64,000 bases of DNA, from assembly GCA_028753945.1 (NCBI GenBank), contig JAPNXP010000004.1:5146001-5210000 (forward strand). The letters run 5' to 3'. This document shows, piece after piece, positions 12,701 to 60,100 of the stretch; the stretch's first letter is position 1; each line of letters opens with the position of its first letter. The notes below the pieces were generated by a model, which saw only the letters and a list, made by a program, of their open reading frames with translations, was not told the DNA's origin and did not search any database. Source of the stretch: Hexactinellida sp. DTS-2022. Lineage: Eukaryota; Porifera; Hexactinellida. A program made the translations under genes and the position numbers.

Positions 12701-15107
12701 CCCATAGGCGAGCTAGCCGAGTCGGACAGGGAATCCGATGATAGCGAGGAGGACACCGCAGAGGTTATACGCTGGAAGCGGGGAGCTGTGCTGGGCATTG
12801 GGGCCTATGGGACCGTAAGTATAGTGTTCTTGTAGTAGTACCTTGTTATATACCTGTTTTGTTACAGCTAGTCAACTGTTTATACCTGTTTTGTTGATTT
12901 TGTTACAGTTAGTCACTTGGCCTATATCGTGTCTGTTGAAAGTGTTATTGTGTTAGTCACTTGTTTATACCATGTTCGCTTAATACAGCTTTTCCCAACA
13001 TTTTTCGGCCGTGGACCCTTACAGAGAATCTTGCCATTATGTGGGCCCCAGGTTGGGAGCCACTGAAGGTATAGCAAGTCGCATTTTGCATTAAATTTGC
13101 TTGCTAATAGGCGAACTTGCTATTAGAGGAACATAATTAATATTGCTATTAGGCGAACACCACTGTATATACAGTATGCTCTCGTTAATAGGAACACTAG
13201 GGGACCGTATTAATATGTTCGTATTAACCGGAGTCACTTGCATGCATTTGTATAGGCTAGGGGAATTAACCTTGTACTCCTTAACCGATATTTCCTTTAT
13301 CTGTGTTCCTACTAACAGAGTCTATATAACTATTTCTTGTTTAGGTTGTGAGAGGCCTAACTCTTGATAAAGGAATGATAATAGCAGTTAAACAAATCGA
13401 ACTCAATTACTATGATAGGGAGAAAGCTCAGAAAGTTTGTTTACCCTTTATATATACGTACATGTAAACAAAGATTGTTGTTTACTTATTGTTGTGTTTA
13501 TAGCAATACGAATTGGTTAAAGCCGAAGTAGATGTGCTAAAGAGACTTACTCATGTGAATATTGTCAAATACCTCGGATCTTGTCTTGACAACATGACTG
13601 TTAATATTTTTATGGAGTTTGTAGCTGGTGGATCTGTAGCGAAACTTCTTAAAACGTAAATTTACATTTTTTATTTCTCTCAATTGAGTTTCAAATAGTA
13701 CAGCCATTTGTAAATACGCTCCTAATCCTGGTATGATCCAAAAAATGTTTACTCCTAATAACAAATTAATGTTACGGTATAGGAGAGGTTTCCAAATTTT
13801 CGTGCTCCTAATCAAATTTTCCAAAAATCATGCTCCTTGGTTTCAATTCAAAACACCATTAGATGTAACCATAATCTCATTCAATACGGTAGAACCTGTC
13901 TATAACGGCACTGAAAAGCAGATATATAAATATTGCTTTGAATAAGCGCCCCGGCCTTATTGTTTCGTAGGCCAAAATTACCATTAAATATTTTGGTTAA
14001 ACTTCTTGAAACGCGTTACATATGTTATTTCTCAAAACACAGAAAGTGTTTTGATTTTATTATTGTTTACAGATTCGGTCCTTTTGAAGAATCTTTTCTT
14101 CGGAACTACACTCGTCAGATTGTTACAGGAGTTAAATATTTACACTCAAAAACTGTTATTCACAGGTTAGTAGTGAGTTTGTTGTTGTTTACAGTAGAAG
14201 CTAGTTAGTACGAACACTAAGGGAACCGTCTAAATGCGTTCGCCTTATCCTGATTCGTATTAACTTTTAGAATTTGTATTGAAAAGGCTTTGAAGGGGAC
14301 TGAAATAGTGTTCGTATAAACGAAGTTTTACTATACACAGTCGGTTAATAGAGTCACCTCGGGACCTGGTTATTTTGACTTGATTAAGCGGAGAAATCTA
14401 TTAACCGAAAATATTTTAAGCCAACCTGTCATTCCGCCCTATAAATCCTGTGAAATTTGACCCCATTAAGCGGAGAATTATATTAACCTGTGGCTCTATT
14501 AAGCGGAGTATACTGTATGTTGTTTATCTGTTTAATTATTGTAGAGATGTGAAAGGTGACAACATTATGGTAGAACCAAGCGGTTGCATTAAACTAATCG
14601 ATTTCGGATGCGCGCGAGCTTTCAGGGATGAATCATCTACGGTAATTAATGGAATTATTATTGCATATTCCCTACAGTAGATTAATACAATTATTATTGC
14701 ATATTTCTACGGTAATTAATAGAATTATTATTGCATATTCCCTACAGTAGATTAATACAATTATTATTGCATATTTCTACGGTAATTAATAGAATTATTA
14801 TTGCATATTTCCTGCAGTAGATTAATACAATTATTATTGCATATTTCTACGGTATTTAATATAATTATTATTGCATATTCCCTACAGTAATTAATACAAT
14901 TATTATTGCATATTCCCTACAGTAATTAATAGAATTATTATTGCATATTTCCTGCAGTAGATTTACTTTAATAGTTTGTGTTTATTGTAGCTTAGTTACG
15001 AAAAGTTCACAATGCTATGTAAGTCTATGAAGGGTACAGTCTATTGGATGGCTCCTGAAGTTATACGGGAGGAGGAGTATAATGAGAAGGCTGATATATG
15101 GTAACCG

Positions 15108-44153: not shown

Positions 44154-47100
44154 ATGAGTGTATCTAAATCTGAAGCTGAAAGATGTCTAGTTGGTCTAGA
44201 AGAAACAATAGAGATTCTACTACAACAGAATCAACATAGGAATACACACACAATGTGCTGTATCATTATAGTTCTACAGGAATACATAACACACCTATTG
44301 CCCCTATTCGAGCCCTTGAGTAGCGATATAGAATGTCCAGATAAACCGGATCTATCGACAAGTGTTAGTGTCATATTGCATATTGGTGCCGGAGAGAATA
44401 GTGGCATAGTATTAGGGGATTTGGGAGAGAGTTTGGATAATAGAATATTCTTAGAACAGATTATAGTTGGTAGCAGTGCTGAGGGAAATGAGGATATTGA
44501 GATAGACCATATCGTGTTAGGTAAACAACAACAACAACAACAACAACAAATAGTTATCTACTTGAAGCAAGGAGTTATCCAGGAGCGCTAGACGCTCCTT
44601 TTGGAGCATGATTTTTGGAATATTATAATTTAGGAGCGTGAAAATTTGGAATCCTCTCTATACTGTAACATTAATTTGCGATTTAGGCGTATGAAAATTG
44701 GATCAGACCAGGATTAGGAGCGTATTTACAAATAGCTGTATAATACACTGACTTGAAGCCAATTACATAACTATAGTAGAACTCGGTTATAAGTTATAAC
44801 GTACCCCCTCGGGAATGGAAATAAGTACGTATTATCTGAATTTACCCTACATAGAAATACATACTACTTTATAGACTTAGTTTAAATAAATACAGTAGTA
44901 ACAGTACGTACTAATTAGCCCAACGATTCCAAACCGTGGACCCCTAGGAAATACCAAACATTATGTGAACCCCCTCCCATTAACTTAATACAAATTTAGA
45001 AATTTTGTGGACCCCAGGTTGGGAACCACTTTACTAAGCCAAAGTACGTAAGTAATAACCGAGTTCTACTATAGCAAGCTTTAACCTTTAACATTTTTCT
45101 CTATAAGGATCAATATAAAGTTCTTATCTCTAATTACTGAATATAACTAAGTAATATTATTAAGTCTCTATAAGGATTATTAAGTACAATACAAGGTTGT
45201 ATGTATCTCTGTATTTACTGAGTATACAAGGATTAATTAAGTAACAAATTAACATTATAAGGTTGTCTCTGTATTTACTGCTATACCCCCCCACAGAGAT
45301 TAACACGCACCCTCTCCTCCGCTGCTCTTTAGAGAGAGCCGCTCTCTGGTTAGACAGTGCAGAGAGATCTGGTACCGTAGAGCTGTTGCTAGCTCGCAGC
45401 ATTAGCGTAGAGAGAGAAGATACCCGGTATAGGGTGCATAGGGCAGTGGACAGGCTGTCCTATAGACTGAGTCAGGAGGCTGTTAGGAGAGCAAACGGTA
45501 TTATAACTGTTGTAGTACCGAGTTATAGTAGAACCGTAGGGACCAATTAAACACATTCGGATAATTTAATACCGAACTAGTATACTTTATGCAACTACAA
45601 TACATACATACATCTACAGTAGAACCTCGTTAGTACGAACACGGTTAATACGACAAACAGTTCCACAAAATCAGGTCCCTACAATGAATATTCAATGGGT
45701 ATTACTCCGGTTAATACGAACTCCGGATAAAGCGAACACATTTTTGCCGTCCGTTGGTGTTCGTATTAACGAGGTTCTACTGTACATTACATACATTACA
45801 CTACACTACATACATATAACAAGTGAACTACATTAGATATACTGATACCTACATTTATATAACCGAACTCGTAGGGACTAAATAAACAAATTAAAGGAGA
45901 ACTACTTGTATACGTTATGTTAATGCACTACATACATGCATTACAAACTACATTATACTACATTGCATTGATAGCTTGATTAACACTGAAACCTCCATTC
46001 ACCGAACTTGTTGGGACCAATTAACAAATTCGCATAATTAAAGGAGACTACTATACTTTTGGCAAGCCTGATTTATACCAGCATGGGATGTTACCAATGT
46101 TGTTGCGTAATTAGTTCTGTAATAAATTATCCGAATTTGTTTGACTGTTCACAACAAGTTCGGTTACAAGGTTGCACTAGTCTATACGTATATACAACTC
46201 TACCTTTTCATGGCAATTGTGTAAATAGGGGGACTTCAAACGTTAAATAACGCTTCAAAAGGGGGTTGCTTACTAACCAATATGTGACAGATAATCCTTT
46301 GTATTACAAAATTACCAAATAATGTGACATAGAGAGGGGTGTATACAATAAATTTCTGGAATTTTGCGTTACATATCGTTTGAATGCTCCTTAATACATA
46401 CAACTTAACGCCAGGGTACAATTAATGCATTCGTGTAGGTATAACTGATCTGGAAGAGATTTCTAGGATTGTGAGAACTCTAACTAACTCGCGAACTGAT
46501 TCTACTGATTATACTGCCAGCGATCTTAAGATCCATATAAGGAGAGGGACCGAAGATATAGGAATAGCTACTGCTACTAATAGCGATACAGGTAAATAGT
46601 AGGGTATTATAATGGCTTGCTTATTGATCACCGGTTATAAGAACATGCCGGTTATAAGAACACCGGTTATAAGAACATTCTACTGGAAAAACGGTTGCCA
46701 TATACCCTATATAATTTATACCGGTTATAAGAACATTATATGCAGTTCCCGACGATGTTCTTATAACCGGCATCCACTGTACGTGTATACACCAACACCT
46801 TTTCAATATTTTTTCAGAAATGACTTTGTCAGTGCCTGAAAATTAGGGGCCTTATATTAGAAAAGGTGTTGACCAAATATGTGTATATTAGTATTCGCTT
46901 AATAAAAGCTGTTATAATAGGAATTAAACCTAACATTTGGCTCTTTTGTGACCTAAATTAACTTGTCAATACAGCAATCTATTCCACTGTTTATTATTTG
47001 ATAATAGAACTGTTATTATAGGAATTAAACTAACATATTATTATATAACCTATATTATTAATTCCCTGTATTTAGGATTGGTTACCATAGTCTCTATCAG

Positions 47101-50100
47101 AGAAAGCTCTGCTATAGAGAGAGATGGGAGAATATGTATTGGAGATATTATTGTTAAAGTGAATGGAATATCTGTAAATGGGTTAGCAGAAGATAAAATA
47201 ATGGAGCTATTGAACGTTAATAGATCAGTTATACAACTTGTTGTTAAACGTAAGTTTTGTTAGTATTTACTAATGTTGTAAAATTTCCAAAAAAATTGTT
47301 TTCTATGGAAATTTCTGGAAAGATTACATATTCCAAATTATGCTTAGGAACTTTATTTGAAAATTGAAATTGTCAAAATTTTTGTGCTACAGTCGAAATC
47401 GGTTTTTTTTGCCCCCCTAAATGCATGGAAAAAGAGGCAAAAAACCCGTATTTAACATTATACAGTGCTATGAGGTTATGAAGAAACAAGGAGAAGCAAG
47501 GAGGCAAAATAACCCGGAGAGGCAAAAAAACCCGTGGCAAAAAACCCCGATTTCGACTGTACTTAAGTTAGACTGTGATGAGGGAGAATAACAAGCGGAC
47601 AGTAACAACTCTACATTATAGATATAGTGATCAAAATTAAAAAACTAGGTACATATACTGTATAATAATTTTTCCATGTAAAATTTCCGGAAATTTGGCA
47701 TTTTTTTTGAAATTTTCCGACCTTACAACACTACTATTTACACTAATATTTCTGGTCCAAAATTCCCTAAATTCTACTTTTAACTTTGGACTTAAACACC
47801 TCTCTATTAGGTATAGTTTAATTCTGTTAACACCAATACAATAAGTTCATATTCGAGTATAAACTCGTTAGTAGGAACACCAGTGGCCGTAAAATGTGTT
47901 CGCCTTATCCGGAATTCGGATCGTATTAACCGGTGTTATTTGCATTGCAAATTTTACGGCACCTTAAGGTATTACCCATAATGGATTATGGGTATAATTC
48001 AAAGATGCGACATTATTTGAAGGAGGTAATATTTGTACAGAACCCAAACAGAGGTTTATTCTGTATTTATGGGCCATAAAATCTGACAGACATCCTACAC
48101 CTAATAATGGAATCACACTGCAAGCACCTTAGCCATTCCCCTCACGTGCTTGTGTGTTCTTAAATCATAATTTTTTCAGCTTTCTGGGACTCGTAGTCTT
48201 TCCAATTAATTCTGGACAGACAAACCCTCTATAATTGTGTGTTTAAAAGTATGTGTATATTTATGTTTAATAAATGAAATAATTAAAAGTACATTAAAAA
48301 GAATTGTGTGTATAAAATGTATATTATGGGGAGGTATATTTATTAGCATTTATATGAGATTATTCGAAAGGTGCTACTATGTATTAATTTCGTAAATTTG
48401 TTAAATATTTACTATTCACGTTAATAACTAATTGGAACGCTACTATATTACAATGATTGCAGTCTGTTTGCTATGTAACTTTGGTGCGTCTTTTCATGTC
48501 TATTTCTGCTGGAAGAATGGGAAAATCTTTTATTGCATACTTTACATCCATACGGTTTATCCCCCGTGTGTATACGGGCATGAGCAGTTAGATTGCTGGA
48601 GTCGCTAAACGTCTTCTTGCATGTTAGGCATTCAAAGGGTTTCTCGCCCGTATGTATAAGGACATGCCTAGTTAGATGGGTAGACTGGCTAAACCTTTGT
48701 TTGCATGTAGTACACTCAAACGGTTTGTCTCCCTTGTGTATCCGGACATGAGTAGCTAGATTGTTAGACTGGCTAAACCTTTGTTTGCATGTAGTACACT
48801 CAAACGGCTTGTCTCCCTTGTGTATACGGACATGAGTAGCTAGATTGTTAGACTGGCTAAACCTTTGTTTGCATGTAGTACACTCAAACGGCTTGTCTCC
48901 CTTGTGTATACGGACATGAGTAGCTAGATTGTTAGACTGGCTAAACCTTTGTTTGCATGTAGTACACTCAAACGGCTTGTCTCCCTTGTGTATACGGACA
49001 TGAGTAGCTAGATTGTTAGACTGGCTAAACCTTTGTTTGCATGTAGTACACTCAAACGGCTTGTCTCCCTTGTGTATACGGACATGAGTAGCTAGATTGT
49101 TAGACTGGCTAAACCTTTGTTTGCATGTAGTACACTCAAACGGCTTGTCTCCCTTGTGTATACGGACATGAGTAGCTAGATTGTTAGACTGGCTAAACCT
49201 TTGTTTGCAGGTAGTACACTCAAAAGGTTTCTCTCCAGTATGTGTACGGGCATGAGTAGTTAGATTGCTGGAGTTGCTAAACCTTTTGTTGCAGGTAGTG
49301 CATTCAAACGGCTTCTCTCCCGTGTGTATCCGAGTGTGATTATTGAGGTGTGCCTTTCCGACAAACTTCTTATCGCATATCTCGCATATGAATAAATTAA
49401 TTCCAGTGTGTATGCGAGTGTGTCTTGTCAAGTTGTATTTGTGTTGAAACGAACAGGAACACTGTCGACATTTAAAAGGTTTGTTGTCTTTCTGTGTTCG
49501 ATTTCGTGTTCGCACTGGGATTGTCTCTCCCGCGAATATCCCAAGTCCCGCGTTTGTTATCGGTGTAATTCTTAAACAGAGCTGTTTCGGGACTGGAATT
49601 GAAGAGAGGGAATTAGTTTTCATTTCCGACTCTTTTAACGGTTCCAACTCGCCAAACATAGGACAATCACCGAAGTGCATATCATCACATTCCTCACAGT
49701 ATATATAGCAATCTTCTGTCGCTAGTTCTTCTGTATAATCGATTTGTTTTAGAGTTTGCTTGTTCTCTGTTCTGGTTTCTTCACTCGGGTCCCAATCGAG
49801 ATCACTCTCGATTTCAGATTCGGAAATGGAATCTTCTTTCCTTTGCTGAAAAATCGGTCGAATAATCTCCGTATTTATCCCTGCATTACTCAGCAATTCC
49901 GTGAGACTGTGAATAATCACTTCTTTCTCTTTTTCGTAGGAAGATTTCTTGTAGCTATAACTTGCCATTTTAACTATTCTGTTTATTCTAATTTAATTTA
50001 CTTTTATATTTATTTATTTGCTGTTTGTACCCATTGTATTTCTCAGAAATCTGATAATTGTTAATCAATGGTGCAAGTTCAAACGTTGTTTTCAGGAATG

Positions 50101-51149: not shown

Positions 51150-54100
51150 AAACAACATACACAACAACATACAACAACAACAACTACACTTATATTCCTA
51201 TAGAGCCAATACAAGCTGTCTCACCAAACAAGCCCCCTCTCCCAAATACCAATGTACCAATAGAGTTGTCAGGTAGAGACATCACTCATAGGACTGAATA
51301 CACTAGACTGTCCGGACTGTCCCAGAGATCTGACAACAGTGATGAGTATTCCGCTTTGGGACTCAGGAATTCTCCTATGCGATCTTCTTTCCAGGTCATA
51401 CATGTTATAATCTGTAGCCACATTCGTTATAGTATTACAGTGGATGCCGGTTATAAGCACATCGTCGGGAACTGCATATAATGTTCTATAACTGACATAA
51501 ATAATATAGGGTATATGGCAACCGTTCTCCAGTAGAATGTTCTTATAACCGGTGTTCTTATACCCGATATATACTGTATTCTGTTAGAGACTATTGTAGC
51601 TAATTTTGTTCATTTTCATAATACAGTTCACTTAATTGGATCACTTTGGGTAGTTTCAAGTTTGGCTCAATTATACACGAAACTTCAAACTAACTTTACA
51701 ATAATTAGATTTACAGTATAGTGTAACTTATTATTCTGCTTATCTCACACATTATAATACAGTAGTTGTCGGATATAAGCACACCGGTTATAAGAACATA
51801 TCGGTTATAAGAACACTATGTTGGAAAACGGTTGCCATATACCCTATATAATTTATGTCGGTTATAAGCACATTAAGTGCAGTTCCCGACGATGTGCTTA
51901 TAACCGGCATCCACTGACTACAGTAGTATAGTGTATATTGTAACTTATTATTCTTGCTTTTTTCACACATTATATTATCCACAATAACTACAGTATAGTA
52001 TATAACACTGTAAGTATAGTGTGACTAGTTATTCTGCTTATTATTCTGCTTTTCTCACACATATAATATCTACAAAACTACAGTATAGTGTATAGTATAT
52101 AGTGTACATAGTTACCTTATCCCACACTTTATATGCCTGCACTAATTAGGTGCGTCACGTGGCTCTCTCCAGGAATGCCAGCACTCCGCTGGGCTTCACG
52201 ATAGCGGGCGGCAAGGGGTCTCGGAAAGGAGACATCGGGATATTTATAGGACACATTCATGACCGTGGGGCAGCCTCTCAAGAGGGGTCCATGAAGGTGA
52301 GAGGATAAATAAATAGATAAACAAACAAACAAACAAACTAACAAACTAACTAACAAACATTCAACTAACTAACAAACAAACAAACGAACAAACAGACAAA
52401 CAAACTAACAAACTAACTAACAAATAAACAAACAAACTAACTAACTAACTAACTAACAAATAAACAAACAAACAAACAAACAGACAAACAAACAAACAAC
52501 CAACCAACCAACCAACCAACCAACCAACCAATCAACCAATCAACTAACTAACTAACTAACTAAACAAATAAACAAATACACAAATAACAACAAACAACAA
52601 CAAACAACAATAACAACACCATACAATAACTAGATTGGCGATGAGATATTGGAAGTTAACGGATTGAGCTTAGAAGGAATGTCTCAGAGAAAAGCTCTAC
52701 AAACTTTCAAGAAACTCAAGCAAGGCCTGATTACAATAAAGCTAAAGTCTCGTTTTATAGAATCTGAGAATTTAGCTAGTTACGAAATGCGAAATGTGAC
52801 TCTCTATAAGACAGCAGATGCGGGATTGGGATTGGAACTTATTCTATTAATAGACGCAGATGGGGGATATAAAGATGGGATTTATATTCAGGTAATGAGG
52901 GCTTAGTATTACATAGTTAATTAACTGTTTAAATATTACTCCTTATTCAGGTTGCGAGAGTAAAGATTTTTGCATAAAATTAAGACCAAAATTAAAGATT
53001 TAGAGATTTTTTATATTTGAAGATGCAAACAATACTTTTACTGTAAACATTTTAACATAAAATTGCAAACTATTGTCTATTCAAATGACAACTAATTAGA
53101 GTATATTATTATTTTAGCATTTATTTATTCAAATCAATGGATATTTTACTCTAAAAAATCAAATAATTACCTATTTACAGTTCCCTATAACCAGGCTTTC
53201 ATTCAGGGAATTTTTTTGGGACCGAGAAAAAATATTCATATTCTGGAGTTGTTCATTCCTTGAAGGTTTTAGAAAAGGTTTTATTAGGTTTTATTTAGAA
53301 AGGCTTAACAATTATTATTACAGTCGACTCCGCTTAATAGAGCCACCTCGGGACCAGTTTGTTTTGACCCAATTAAGCGGAGAAACCGATTAACCGAAAA
53401 TATTGTATTCCAAACTGTCATTCTGTCCTATAAATCCTGTGAAATTTTGACCCGATTAAGCGGAGAAACCGATTAACCGGTGGCTCTATTAAGCGGAGTT
53501 GACTGTATCTCACTTTTCTAGAATGTTCGAGAGGCATCAGTAGCATACCAAGACGGGTCCCTAACCCGAGGCGACCAGCTGCTAACCATTAACGGAGATC
53601 CTCTAACCAGCACTAACCTACGCAAGGCACACGCTATTATAGGCACCCTGGCCCCGGGGTCTGTCGATATAGGCATACGGAGATACACACCTGTTGCCCC
53701 TCTCGAGAGACTGCTCACGCTAGCCAAGAGGCAGAACAGACTCCAGCCTATTCCCAGCCAATTGAGCATGAGGTTTGTAATGGTAGTATAGTAGTAGATA
53801 ATAGCTAATAGTAGTTAGTAGATCCTAGTTAAGTATAGGAGGTATTGCTTATAGTATTAGTACAGTATAACCCAGTAAGTAAGAACACTGTTAATACGAA
53901 CACTTTCTTATCTCCCTTCAAAGCTTTTCAATATAAATGATATTGGTTAATACAAATTCCGGATAAGATGAACACATTTTGACGGTCCCCTGGTGTTCGT
54001 ACTAACGAGAATATATTGTATACATATACATCTTATAATAAGACAGTAGAACTTTGTTAGTACGAACATCAGGGTACCGTCAAAATGTGTTCATCTTATC

Positions 54101-57100
54101 CGGAATTTGTATTAACCAATATCATTTATATTGAAAAGCTTTGAAGAGAGATGAAATAGTATTCGTATTAACCGTGTTCGTATTATCCGTGTACAAGTAC
54201 AACTAACGAGATTATACTGTATACTATATAATAACATTTATCCCTCAGATTAGAGCCGCGGGCTCCTAGCTACCAAACAGATGCCAGCAACATATTCCTA
54301 CAGGAAATGAATAAGCTCAGCAGTGACAGTTCTGAGAATGATTCCACTTTAGAATCCGACTTAACTAAGCTTATAGCCGGCATAGAGAGGGCTAATTCAT
54401 TCACATTGGGGGAGGAAGTTAATAGAAAACAGGTGTATAGTATAGAGAGAGCTCATGGGTCTGAAACAGCTTTAAGAATGAGTAGAGAGGAATTAGAGAA
54501 TATGGATATTGATGCTCTCCTGTCTCCTATTGATACAGAGCCTGTTAGAGAGGAAATAATGGTACTTAGTCATTAGTCATAGTTATTATAATCGTGTGTG
54601 TATATAAGGGGCTTACTTACAATTAGGTTATTTTATATACAGTCAACTCCCGTTATAACGAAGTGCTCGGGACCGTAGTTTCATTTCGTTATAAGCGGAG
54701 TTTGTTATAACCGGAGTAAAATCAATAGGGACCGTCAAAATGTGTACTCTTTATCCGAATTCGTATTAACCTGTGTCATTTCTATTGAAAAGACAGAATT
54801 TCGTATTAACGAGGTTCTACTGCTAACTCGAGGTTCTACAGCTATTTCTGTTCTAGCCTAACTCAGACTCAGAAGACTCGCTATCTGCCCTATTAGCAGA
54901 GCCACTCCTGCTCTCTTCCCCTATACAGCACACCTCTGTTAATACAGACACCAGCAAGAGAGATATGCAGAGACTGGATATAGCTAGGAGAGGGTACTCC
55001 AGGGATAAGATGATGGAGACTGTTAGTCTTAACAGGAGTATGGGACAAACCTTAGGTAAGCAGTTATACATACGTATTGTATTGTATTGTATTGTATTGT
55101 ATTGTATTGCATTGAATAGTTGGTGAAAAAATATATTAACCGAAAATGTTTAAGTCAAACTGTCATTCCGTCCTATAAATCCTGTGAAATTTTGACCCGA
55201 ATAAGCGGAGTAATATATTAACCGGTGGCTCTATTAAGCGGAGTATACTTTACTGTATTTATAGGAAAAGTAGCTTATTTATTTTAGCTGTTATTAGAGT
55301 TGTTTGAGGAAATAAGTTACATACAATTAATTAACTAATAGTTCCCTCAGTATTTATGTGCTGTATTACAATTTATTAACGGATTTTCCTAGTTGCCTTG
55401 TAGATATATTTTCTATTTATCAGTATTTATTCGCGATTATTCGAGGGGACTGCTATGTATTAATTTCCTAAATTTATTAAATTAACTATTCACAATAATT
55501 GGAGCGCTACTATATTACAATGATTATAGTCTGTTTGCTGTCTAACTTTGGTGTGTCTTTTCATGTTTGTTTCTGCCGGAAGAACTAGAAAATCTTTTAT
55601 CGCATACTTTGCATCCAAACGGCTTCTCGCCCGTATGTATCCGGACATGAGTAGTTAGATGGCTGGGGTCGCTAAACCTCTTCTTACATGTTAGACATTC
55701 AAACGGTTTGTCTCCTGTGTGTATACGGACATGAATAGTTAGATGGCCAGACTGGGAAAACCTTTCCTTGCAGGTAAGGCATTCAAAAGGCTTTTCTCCC
55801 GTGTGTATCCGAGTGTGTCTAGTGAGCTTTAGCTTGTCAGTAAACTTTTTGTCACAAATCTCACATACGAATAAATTAATTCCAGTGTGTATCCGTGTGT
55901 GTCTTGTTAAGTTGTCTTTGCGTTGAAACGAACAGGAACATTGCTGACATTTATAAGGTTTGTCTATTTGTGTTCGATATACAGTTCTCCTTACCACAGA
56001 GTCACGAATCGCTTTATCTTCAGTATCTATTGTTTCTGTCGCCCCTATTCCCAACTGCTTAGCATAGGAATCTCCGTAATACACCAACAGCTCTTCCCCT
56101 GGCCGTATGACCTTATAGCTCCTGTAGTATATCCTACCTCTGAACTGAAACGCAACCAAGTTCTGTTCCTCCTCGCTCCTGGCGCAGTTCACGAATCTTA
56201 ACCAGTTAGCTCTGTTCAGGTCAGCTCCGTCAATGTACCACACTGTTCTACCCGCGTTCCTCTTAATCTGCCATAAATACTCGCTCTCGTTTGGGAAATC
56301 TTCTGCGGATCCCTTAACGAGAGTGCCACCATACGGTCCCATTCGTGTTCGGACTGGGATTGTTTCTCTCGCGAATATCCCAAGTCCCGCGTTTGCTATG
56401 GATGACATTCGTAAGCTGAGCTGTTTCGGAACTGGGATTAGAGAGAGGGAATTAGTTTTCATTTCCGACTCTTTTAACGGTTCCAATTCGCCATACAGTG
56501 GACAATCACCGAAATGCATATCATCACATTCCTCACAGTATATATAGCAGTCTTCTGTTGTCAGTTCTTCTTCTGTATAATCGATTTGTTTCAAATGTCT
56601 CCTTCCCCTCTCAACAGATATTATCTGTGACTCGCTACTGTCCTGTATTTCCAGTGTCTCCTCTAATTTCTGTTGCCGTATGTATCTGCTGACTAATGCA
56701 ATCTCATCTTCCATTAACTGTTGGTCTTCTCTCTTTTGTAGATAATCCTCGTAACTTATTTTGTCTTCAGTTTTCAATGTTTCTTCGTCCGAACTGAATT
56801 CCACGTATTTCAAATCTTCGAAACAGTCCCTTTCCTTATTTCTAACAATTGACTTGTGTGCTGGTTGCTCCTTTGCTTTCCCAAACGTGAAATCCTTTGT
56901 AATCCGACTTTTATCAATCTTCTTTTTAGGAGTCATATTATTATCTGGGGAATCTAGTTTTCTCTTTGCAGATTGTCGTTTGTCCTCGCTTTGTTTGTGA
57001 CCTGCTAAACCTGCTACAAACGGCATTGGTATTATAGTTTGGTTGTTCTCTGTTTTATTTTCCTCACTCGGGTCCCAATCGAGATCACTCTCGCTTTCAG

Positions 57101-60100
57101 AATCGGAAGTAAAATCTTCTTTTCTTTGTTGAAAAGTCGGTCGATTCGTTTCCATGTTTATTCCTAGTTTTCTCAACAATTCGGTATTCCTGCGAATATT
57201 TGCTTCCCTTTCTTTCTCGTAAGAAGATTTCTTTTCGTTATAACTTGCCATTTTAATTATTCTGTTTATTTTAATTTAACTTATTTATATATTTATTTAC
57301 TTGCTGTTTGTACCTATTTTATTTCCCACAAATCTGATTTGTTAATTAATTCATTCATTTCAGTCCTATTTGAATACTAAATTATTTGCATTGAATCTGA
57401 TTGGGTACGAAATCGGAACTATTAATTCCTTTCTGCCAATATGTACAATACGGTTGTTAGGGAATATTCAAGTCTATTTCGTCACACAGAACGTATATGA
57501 CGTATATTCGTATAAATTAATACTATTTTGAAATAATTTACAGGTCTTATAAATCACTTATTACCTAGAGTTTTAATATGATCCTCTAAATACAGTAGAA
57601 CCTCGTTAATCCTCGTTAATAGATGTGTTTTTAAGGTAAATTTCCGATTATTTTCCTATAGGGGATACCGTTATTAAAAAGAGAGAAGACCAACTGTTAA
57701 TGGAAGAGGAGTTTGCATTAGTTAACAGATACATACGGCAACAGAAATTTGATGAGACACCAATCGATTATACAGAACAAGAACTAGCGACAGAAGACTG
57801 TTATATATACTGTGAGGAATGTGATGATATGCACTTCGGTGATTGTCCACTGTTTGGCGAGTTTGAACCGTTAAAAGAGTCGGAAATAAAAACTAATTCC
57901 CCCAATTCAATCCCTGTTCCCAAAGAGCTTTCCTTGCGAATTTCACCATTTCCAAATACGGGAGAGACAATCCCAGTCCGAACAAGAAATCATACACAGA
58001 AACACAAACCATATAAATGTCAACAATGTTCCTGTTCATATCAAAACAAGAGAACCTTAACAAGACACACGCGTATTCACACTGGACGTAACCAATTCGC
58101 ATGTGATATATGTAACAAAAGGTTTAGCGATGCTAGCAATCTCACTGTACACACTCGAATACATACGGGAGATAGGCCCTTTGAGTGTACTTCTTGTAAC
58201 AAAAGGTTTAACAAATCTTGCAATCTCACTAGACATGTCCGGACACATACAGGAGAGAAACCTTACGGGTGCCTTACCTGTAAGGCAAGGTTTAGCGACG
58301 CTAGCAGTCTAACTAGGCATGCCCGGGCACACACGGGAGAGAAACCCTATGAATGTCTCAAGTGTAAGAAAAGGTTTAGCAACGCTAGCCATCTTACTAG
58401 ACATGTCCGTACACAGCACAAGGTTATATAGTTTGTCGCATTATAGTACTATGTCCTTTTCGTATTTGATGAATAAATACAGAATACGTATATACTCCGT
58501 TTAATTAATAGAGCCACCGGTTAATAGATTTCTCCGCTTAATGGGGCGTGAATTTCACAGGATTTTTATTTAAGACGGAATTACAGTTTGACACAAAATA
58601 TTTTCGGTTAATAGGTTTATCCGATAATAAGGTCAAACTAGTGGTACACTAATACCTGTCTGTTTTTTCGTGAGAATAATAGTAAGTATATGGTACCGAC
58701 TTTCCAACAAAGAAAAGAAGATTCCACTTCCGAATCTGAAATCGAGAGTGATCTCGATTGGGACCCGAGTGAAGAAACCAAAACAGAGAACAAGCAAACT
58801 ATAAAACAAATGTCGTTTGTAGCAGGTTTTGCAGCTCACAAACAATGCGAGGACAAACGACAATCTACAAAGAGAAAACTAGATTCCCCAGATAGTAATT
58901 TGACTCCTAAAAAGAGAATTGACAAAAGTCGGATTACAAAGGATTTTACGTTTGGGAAAGCAAAGGAGCAACCAGCACACAACTCAATTGTTAGAAATAA
59001 GGAAAGGGACTGTTTCGAAGAGTTGAAATATGTGGAATTCAGTTCTGACGAAGAAACGTCAAAAACTGATGACAAAATAAGTTACGAGGATTATCTACAA
59101 AAGAGAGAAGACCAACTGTTAATGGAAGATGAGATAGCATTATTTAGCAGATACATACGCATACCTGTCAACCTATTTGAGACATATCCCTGTACGAGGC
59201 TCCTATTTCCCCCTGTACATTGGCCAAAATCCCTGTACAGCCCCCCAAAAAATCTTTCTTGTAAAGGTGAAAACATTAGTTTATATAGACTGTACAGGGA
59301 ATCCCTGTATATACTAATTCAATTAGTTAACTATGTAGTATAAATATTCCTATAAGTGTTGTATAACGAGGTTCTACTATTGACTATTGACTGTTATAAT
59401 GCAATTAGTTAACTATTATAAATATCCCTATAGGTGTTCGTATAACGAGGTTCTACTATTGGACTATTGACTGTATACAACTAAGATAATATATAATATC
59501 CCTATATGTATAACGAGGTTCTACTATTGACTATTGACAGTATACAACTAATATAAATATATAATATCCCTATAAGTGTTGTATAACGAGGTTCTACTAT
59601 TGACTATTGACTGTATACAACTAATATAAATATATAATATCTCTATAGGCATGAATGTACTAGCATGCAGTACACCTCAGGGTGGAGTATTAGTAACGAG
59701 CATTCTAAAGAACGGACCTGCGGCTAAACAAGCGGGCATTCGAATTGGAGACGAACTAATGTTAATCAACAACAAAGCATTAACAGGGCTAACTCAATCA
59801 GAAGTATTAAGCTTATTATCCTCATTAACTGGAGATATGCAATTTGTTATTATACGAACACCAGATTGTATAGATAATGTTGCAGTAGTTAATGATAATA
59901 TGAATGTAGGGCAAACAAGAAAATTAGATCAGGTAAATACTACAGTATTTCAATATTCCTTATACAGTAGATTCTCGTTAATAGGAACACCAGGGGACTG
60001 TCTTAATATGTTCGTATTATCCGGAATTCGTATTAACCGGAGTCACTTGCATGCATTTGTATAGGCTAGGGGAATTAACCTTGTACTCCTTAACCGATAT

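Follow-up and report, generated by a model that had tools for sequence, protein, structure and literature searches.

A PRDM9-like gene with a single coding exon, further intact copies and SET-less paralogues in a hexactinellid sponge

The stretch of DNA analyzed here, the window, comprises 64,000 nucleotides of Hexactinellida sp. DTS-2022 (assembly GCA_028753945.1, contig JAPNXP010000004.1, positions 5,146,001 to 5,210,000) and carries on its minus strand, at 55542..57251, gene A, a PRDM9-like gene whose coding sequence forms one exon. The frame is uninterrupted: it runs from the ATG at 57251 to the stop at 55542, with 569 codons and no internal stop. "Single exon" refers to the coding part; a 5' untranslated intron may still exist. 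The 569-residue protein contains a zinc knuckle (CEEC..C, residues 235-252, 56496..56549), recognized by alignment to PRDM9, then a PR/SET domain (residues 279-402, 56046..56417), found by both Pfam and PDB matches, and a C-terminal array of five C2H2 fingers (55551..55955). In Pfam, the PR domain (PF21549) covers residues 279-402 with an E-value of 4.8e-40 and is accompanied by the five fingers. A preliminary description of this DNA, made from its letters, had placed the gene at exactly these coordinates, and the motifs that it cited, CEEC..C, NCARSEEEQNL and VYYGDSY, are all present. The genome (112.4 Mb in 18 contigs were searched; the window sits on contig C13) contains two more intact copies, with identities of 89% and 90%; hence, together with the domain scores, a chance origin of the frame is ruled out.

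The best PDB matches of gene A are mouse and human PRDM9 (137, 129 and 128 bits), the best three of 25 sequences with an E-value up to 0.01. The other scores are 93 bits for PRDM12, 82 for PRDM4, and 76 for both PRDM14 and PRDM11: the PR/SET domain is closest to PRDM9, which leads the next family, PRDM12, by 44 bits. Over the knuckle and the SET domain, the identity is 43% to mouse PRDM9 (71/165) and 41% to human PRDM9. The knuckle is spanned only by the PRDM9 and PRDM11 alignments in this comparison, the PRDM4 chain (151 residues) probably being without this part, and it aligns residue by residue to PRDM9. A knuckle preceding the PR domain is not exclusive to this group, as PRDM4 has one of its own (PDB 2l9z). 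Searched alone, the knuckle of gene A gives a weak PRDM9-like match (best E-value 0.041), and one of the four matches is an unrelated ribosomal protein.

Tyrosines 276, 341 and 357 are required for PRDM9 activity (PMC5519329; here and below, statements from cited papers refer to the excerpts available). Located by their spacing (65 and 16 residues), all three are kept in each of the three SET-bearing copies, A, B and C. At least one is lost in seven of eight comparators other than PRDM9, namely PRDM1, 2, 4, 11, 12 and 14 and a PRDM-type gene on contig C1 of the same genome; in the eighth, MECOM, the first two are kept and the third position lies outside the PDB letters used. The loss of catalytic residues that the preliminary description had named as a sign against its assignment is not seen.

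Ahead of the knuckle, direct alignment reveals a half-KRAB similarity at residues 11-65 (57057..57221). When the first 75 residues are aligned to the KRAB region of human PRDM9, this part scores 67; shuffled sequences reach a mean of 25.8 (standard deviation 4.5), and none of 2000 attains the observed score. The z value is about 9 in both A and C. For the full 231-residue N-terminus and a longer piece of PRDM9, the score is 69, reached by 5 of 3000 shuffles. The matched part corresponds to the second helix of KRAB and the B part that follows it, with P-x-F and W landmarks. A YEKxRxxNIxxN-like helix occurs in unrelated proteins too; the similarity represents good but not final evidence. Such P-x-F and W landmarks have been described for the ancestral KRAB-B of PRDM9 orthologues (PMC8835667).

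The two other intact genes with a SET domain and fingers, B (C13:5394527-5396218) and C (from C13:5397452), lie side by side, ~190 kb from A. A and B possess five fingers each and C possesses seven; all three thus end in the tandem C2H2 array of the complete four-domain PRDM9 form. When A, B and C are compared in pairs, dN/dS is 0.15-0.18 in the part ahead of the knuckle and 0.18-0.23 over the knuckle and the SET domain: the N-terminus and the SET domain are under purifying selection. A Pfam search of the genome for PR domains, which may miss those split across exons, gave seven matches: A, B, C, the C1 gene, one decayed copy each on C11 and C12 and, scoring below the cut-off, a scrap on C4. 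The C1 gene (L014, 2450-4813), nearest to PRDM14 and PRDM12, is the only other clear PR gene found; it has an apparent intron inside the PR domain and three fingers in a separate frame. The decayed PRDM9-like sequences on C11 (L013, 2421-2861) and C12 (L041, 2711-3209) share 94% identity over 576 bases and show a different internal SET deletion (GPY, then closely ANNWL or a break). Their flanking frames are alike, so they are probably part of a larger repeat. No relatives of the family were found in the viral and prokaryotic collections, as expected for an animal gene.

Gene D, on the minus strand at 48448..49968, is an intact SET-less paralogue of 506 residues with 12 fingers. What it lacks is a stretch of 363 bases (121 codons, in frame), corresponding to 55979..56341 of gene A; the excision junction lies at 49502/49503. 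The two other relatives in the window are on the plus strand. Copy E (57640..58431) is SET-less and without N-terminus, with five fingers in an open frame of 263 codons, and copy F (58642..59343) is an N-terminal fragment, 84% similar to residues 35-193 of A, which has no finger and to which Pfam assigns no family. The three relatives reported within 11 kb of gene A are all real, though unequal: only D is intact, E is missing its front and F is a mere fragment. The presence of nearby SET-less derivatives, also proposed in the preliminary description, is confirmed by the junction shared by D, E and others.

Outside the window, SET-less copies were found on C7 (G), C3 (H) and C1 (J). Of the eight aligned copies D to K, five (D, E, G, H, J) allow the junction to be read, and all five show the identical blunt, in-frame cut of 363 bases. 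The cut is not seen in copies F, I and K, which were left out of the DNA trees; a scrambled copy on C4 was not aligned. Because the five share one exact junction, the SET-less copies probably arose from one excision event. In the combined DNA tree, a branch with support 86/92 separates the five from the other sequences, and the knuckle region alone leaves this grouping open (p-AU 0.35). Slippage between two CGAACAC repeats was considered as the cause of the deletion and rejected: the SET-less copies still contain the two of them, and no bases are shared at the junction. As a speculative idea, an ancestor with introns could have skipped an exon and then been retrotransposed, which would agree with the in-frame blunt junction; the C1 PRDM-type gene apparently has no intron at the excision site (by eye).

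The dN/dS of gene D against A, B and C is 0.24-0.34 (0.24 against A), and the gene looks constrained. Its half-KRAB match is mostly decayed, the score being reached by 33 of 2000 shuffles. The gene contains an 84-base tandem repeat (48552..49329, minus strand), with six successive fingers the same in protein and four of them the same in DNA: the array is a recent expansion, uniform at the contact sites too.

For the comparison of DNA contacts, codons -1, 2, 3 and 6 were taken from fingers 1, 2 and the last, which can be paired by their place. Between A and B, 13 nonsynonymous and no synonymous changes fall on the contact codons; the remaining codons differ by 8 and 9, respectively. The excess at contacts has a p value below 0.01 in five of six copy pairs. 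For the edge-disjoint pairs A-D and B-C taken together, there are 22.8 nonsynonymous and 2.2 synonymous changes at contacts, versus 11 and 19 elsewhere (Fisher p 2.3e-5, on rounded counts). Within the core fingers of A, B and C (8 fingers pooled, the first two and the last of each array dropped), the ratio of contact to non-contact diversity is 2.16, a value to be read with care, as the control ratios given below are for whole arrays only.

The genome also possesses candidate partners. CW domains were found at two loci, one on C5 and a MORC-like one on C14 (the latter by eye). The protein at C5:483958 combines PF07496 and PF00855 in one 272-codon frame, and the best PDB match of its CW domain is ZCWPW1, followed by ZCWPW2; a CW-PWWP reader is, hence, encoded in the same genome. 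In vertebrates, ZCWPW1 reads both marks written by PRDM9 and coevolves with it (PMC8892340). Furthermore, SPO11-like, HORMAD-like (HORMA and PHD) and DMC1-like genes are present (DMC1 by eye). These genes indicate a meiotic toolkit and no PRDM9 role by themselves; a meiotic role of the gene A family is plausible.

Single long frames encode the SPO11-like, HORMA and PHD, DMC1-like, MSH5-like and ZCWPW-like proteins, as well as RAD51 (two near-identical copies on C2). The MSH2-like and MSH4-like genes are apparently split by introns (the MutS and RecA kin were named by eye). The loci are L048 (1465-2562), L045 (1405-2541), L057 (1492-2541), L052 (1342-3570), L044 (907-1725), L055 and L056.

The explanation favored here, with a probability of about one half, is that A, B and C are intact PRDM9-like histone methyltransferase genes that would act in meiosis as PRDM9 does. 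In germ cells, their fingers would choose DNA sites, the SET domain would place H3K4me3 and H3K36me3 on the neighboring nucleosomes, and this double mark would be recognized near SPO11 breaks by the CW-PWWP reader. After the in-frame excision, the SET-less copies would have been copied around the genome. Gene D would be a constrained finger protein unable to methylate, which might compete for sites or be a plain transcription factor. A stronger version is considered unlikely: recombination would still be directed with half a KRAB and no detectable SSXRD, the catalytic residues being intact and the ZCWPW-like reader retained, by several paralogues that differ in finger specificity, and SET-less paralogues would be natural inhibitors competing for the same sites.

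Several observations weigh against a PRDM9 identity and role, and they concern the SET domain, the N-terminus and the fingers. PRDM4 is 40% identical to gene A over 133 columns. The tree of PR domains comprises 13 rows, nine of them PDB-derived, and 136 of 193 columns; PRDM5, PRDM10 and PRDM16, which were also among the PDB matches, were left out, and the knuckle columns were dropped, as fewer than half of the rows fill them. In its best topology, the window genes join PRDM9 and PRDM11, with a support of only 44/6. PRDM9 and PRDM11 stay together without the window genes at 88/90. Groupings of the window genes with PRDM4 (p-AU 0.41) or with PRDM12/14 are not rejected (rivals p-AU 0.30-0.41), and uniting PRDM9 with the window genes in one clade costs 3.97 log units relative to the best tree (p-AU 0.09). 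The SET tree, as built from these sequences, gives no resolution of the family, no preference for PRDM9 over PRDM11 and no positive proof. A firm placement outside the 7/9/11 group, which would have spoken against the preliminary description, did not occur, though the support is weak. Its PRDM9-type reading is thus sustained by the PDB score, the three tyrosines, the weakly PRDM9-like knuckle and the half-KRAB, and finds no positive proof in the tree.

Concerning the N-terminus, the first 234 residues of gene A give no Pfam match at E-values up to 5, hence no KRAB or SSXRD by this method. A complete KRAB was not found in gene A, its half being visible by direct alignment only. For SSXRD, gene A has no Pfam match, and the direct alignment stays at shuffle level; a remnant ahead of the knuckle was dropped as a candidate for the same reason. 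The domain is short and its detection unreliable (PMC8892340). Genome-wide searches found no KRAB or SSXRD, which carries little weight, as the controls gave no match either. In vertebrates, the evidence says that recombination is not directed by orthologues without KRAB and SSXRD (PMC5519329; PMC8892340). Since the score and the catalytic residues are PRDM9-like, the full KRAB and SSXRD were not found and the tree gives no placement, the label is kept partial: PRDM9-like.

As for the fingers, the contacts in the pair B-C carry 9.3 nonsynonymous and 1.7 synonymous changes, versus 6 and 4 elsewhere (p 0.36). For A, B and C, the whole-array ratio of contact to non-contact diversity amounts to 1.48, 1.48 and 1.53, the contacts holding 31-32% of the finger diversity; these values are within the range of 16 ordinary C2H2 arrays from 14 loci of the same genome (median 1.40, range 1.16-2.58). 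Control finger pairs (22 close reciprocal ones, of 23 pairs, from 129 fingers) carry 16 nonsynonymous and 3 synonymous changes at contacts, and 5 and 4 elsewhere, an imperfect control, as the pairs were chosen by non-contact similarity, which lowers the non-contact count. A cluster of C2H2 arrays at C1:15.6-16.3 Mb (L028 to L035), made of single-frame genes with up to 12 tandem fingers, served among the controls. No finger signature specific to PRDM9 could be established, because ordinary arrays and control pairs show the same pattern: contact-codon change is a habit of the C2H2 genes in this genome and no mark of this family.

These points can be read in other ways. Possibly, though with some doubt, the genes are partial PRDM9 relatives that left, or never had, a role in recombination, and would be sequence-specific methyltransferases in gene regulation, like the fish and platypus genes without KRAB and SSXRD. 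The missing SSXRD, the halved KRAB and the ordinary finger diversity within the arrays agree with this, as does the vertebrate precedent, which includes platypus and catfish, where a partial PRDM9 keeps its tyrosines (PMC5519329; PMC8892340). However, most such vertebrates have substituted tyrosines, and their ZCWPW1/2 tends to loss or relaxation, whereas here the tyrosines are intact in three of three copies and a CW-PWWP protein is present; the strong contact differences between the copies are also harder to reconcile with it.

The shared identity with PRDM4 and the tree joining them, which is not rejected, could instead mean that a PRDM4-type or other knuckle PRDM converged on PRDM9-like residues. 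This is very improbable: where PRDM9 has Y276 and Y341, PRDM4 carries L and F, it scores 55 bits lower than PRDM9, and the half-KRAB similarity at the N-terminus is of PRDM9 type. The partial or broken copies on C1, C3, C4, C7, C11 and C12, together with the single coding exon and a similarity that fades in several copies shortly after a shared AATAAA-like site (by eye), bring to mind a family of mainly mobile debris, spread by retrotransposition or in larger repeats, whose open frames would be recent leftovers without function. Such an origin is very improbable, given the dN/dS among A, B and C and that between D and these three. Moreover, the flanks inspected, which were not searched systematically, showed neither a poly-A tail nor a target-site duplication, and further flank is common to D-K, F-G and H-I upstream and to I-J downstream, which points to DNA-level duplication as well, against retrotransposition alone.

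Inside the window, the relatives lie between plus-strand frames with PDZ domains. Two of these, at 46952..47260 (E-value 5.4e-9) and 59630..60061 (E-value 3.7e-9), are probable exons of a host gene, as is the frame at 53522..53788, whose weak PDZ match is below the Pfam cut-off; the other three of the six frames scanned have no PDZ match. This arrangement fits the proposal that the relatives sit in introns of one PDZ gene. A short dispersed repeat at 55129-55264, carrying GAGCCACCGGTTAATAG and TCCGCTTAA and resembling the end of a DNA transposon, adjoins several copies; its kin are found in the window at 14394, 23100, 43958, 53389, 58505, 63303 and other places.

Compared to mammalian PRDM9 (Meisetz), which determines the sites of recombination between chromosomes, the family shares the zinc knuckle, the PR/SET domain with Y276, Y341 and Y357, the C-terminal tandem C2H2 array and a ZCWPW-like reader in the genome. 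It differs by its single coding exon, its three intact copies, the SSXRD that was not found, the detection of only the second half of the ancestral KRAB, its 5-7 fingers and a contact diversity that, over whole arrays, falls within the range of the genome's ordinary C2H2 genes. PRDM11 has in common the knuckle and the PR domain of the 7/9/11 group; the identity is only 31%, and PRDM11 carries F at Y341 and S at Y304. PRDM11 is not known to have a finger array or a KRAB domain.

The partial PRDM9 of fish and platypus resembles the family by its truncated N-terminal region and its conserved SET domain and fingers, and platypus and catfish keep the tyrosines. Catfish lacks ZCWPW2 and platypus shows weakened constraint on ZCWPW1/2, whereas the genome analyzed here retains a CW-PWWP protein (PMC5519329; PMC8892340). 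Outside vertebrates, Prdm9 with concerted finger evolution has been reported in Nematostella (sea anemone), Lottia (snail) and Capitella (polychaete) by Oliver et al. 2009 (PMC2779102), the Nematostella gene showing change at the finger contact positions. In those genes, the concerted evolution takes place within the array, whereas here only the SET-less D is freshly homogenized, its contacts being identical too; the excerpt of PMC2779102 makes no mention of a SET-less subfamily for the three species. A 2026 review lists full-length PRDM9 homologues in cnidarians and sponges, with an unknown function there (PMC13186367). The novelty claimed earlier for a PRDM9-like family outside vertebrates is weaker than supposed, since such families were already reported (PMC2779102; PMC13186367). 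In the titles and abstract openings of the literature on PRDM9 in invertebrates, sponges, cnidarians and retrogenes, subscription literature being outside this scope, no description was found of an intronless PRDM9 family or of a SET-less PRDM9-derived subfamily. The kind itself is known; what appears new is a truncated, intronless and multi-copy form, catalytically intact as judged by its residues, with a SET-less offshoot.

Among vertebrates, PRDM9-directed recombination disappears along with KRAB and SSXRD, and in most cases the tyrosines and ZCWPW1/2 decay as well (PMC5519329; PMC8892340). These traits are uncoupled in the sponge genome: the front is truncated, the catalytic residues are intact, the reader is kept and several copies have different fingers. 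The SET-less subfamily provides, in addition, a natural set of finger proteins detached from the enzyme. If recombination is still directed in this animal, the vertebrate-derived rule that a full N-terminus is required would be broken. Because of the uncoupling, a hotspot map of this sponge would test which parts of PRDM9 are needed and, also, whether the role predates vertebrates, a question left open by the excerpted review (PMC13186367).

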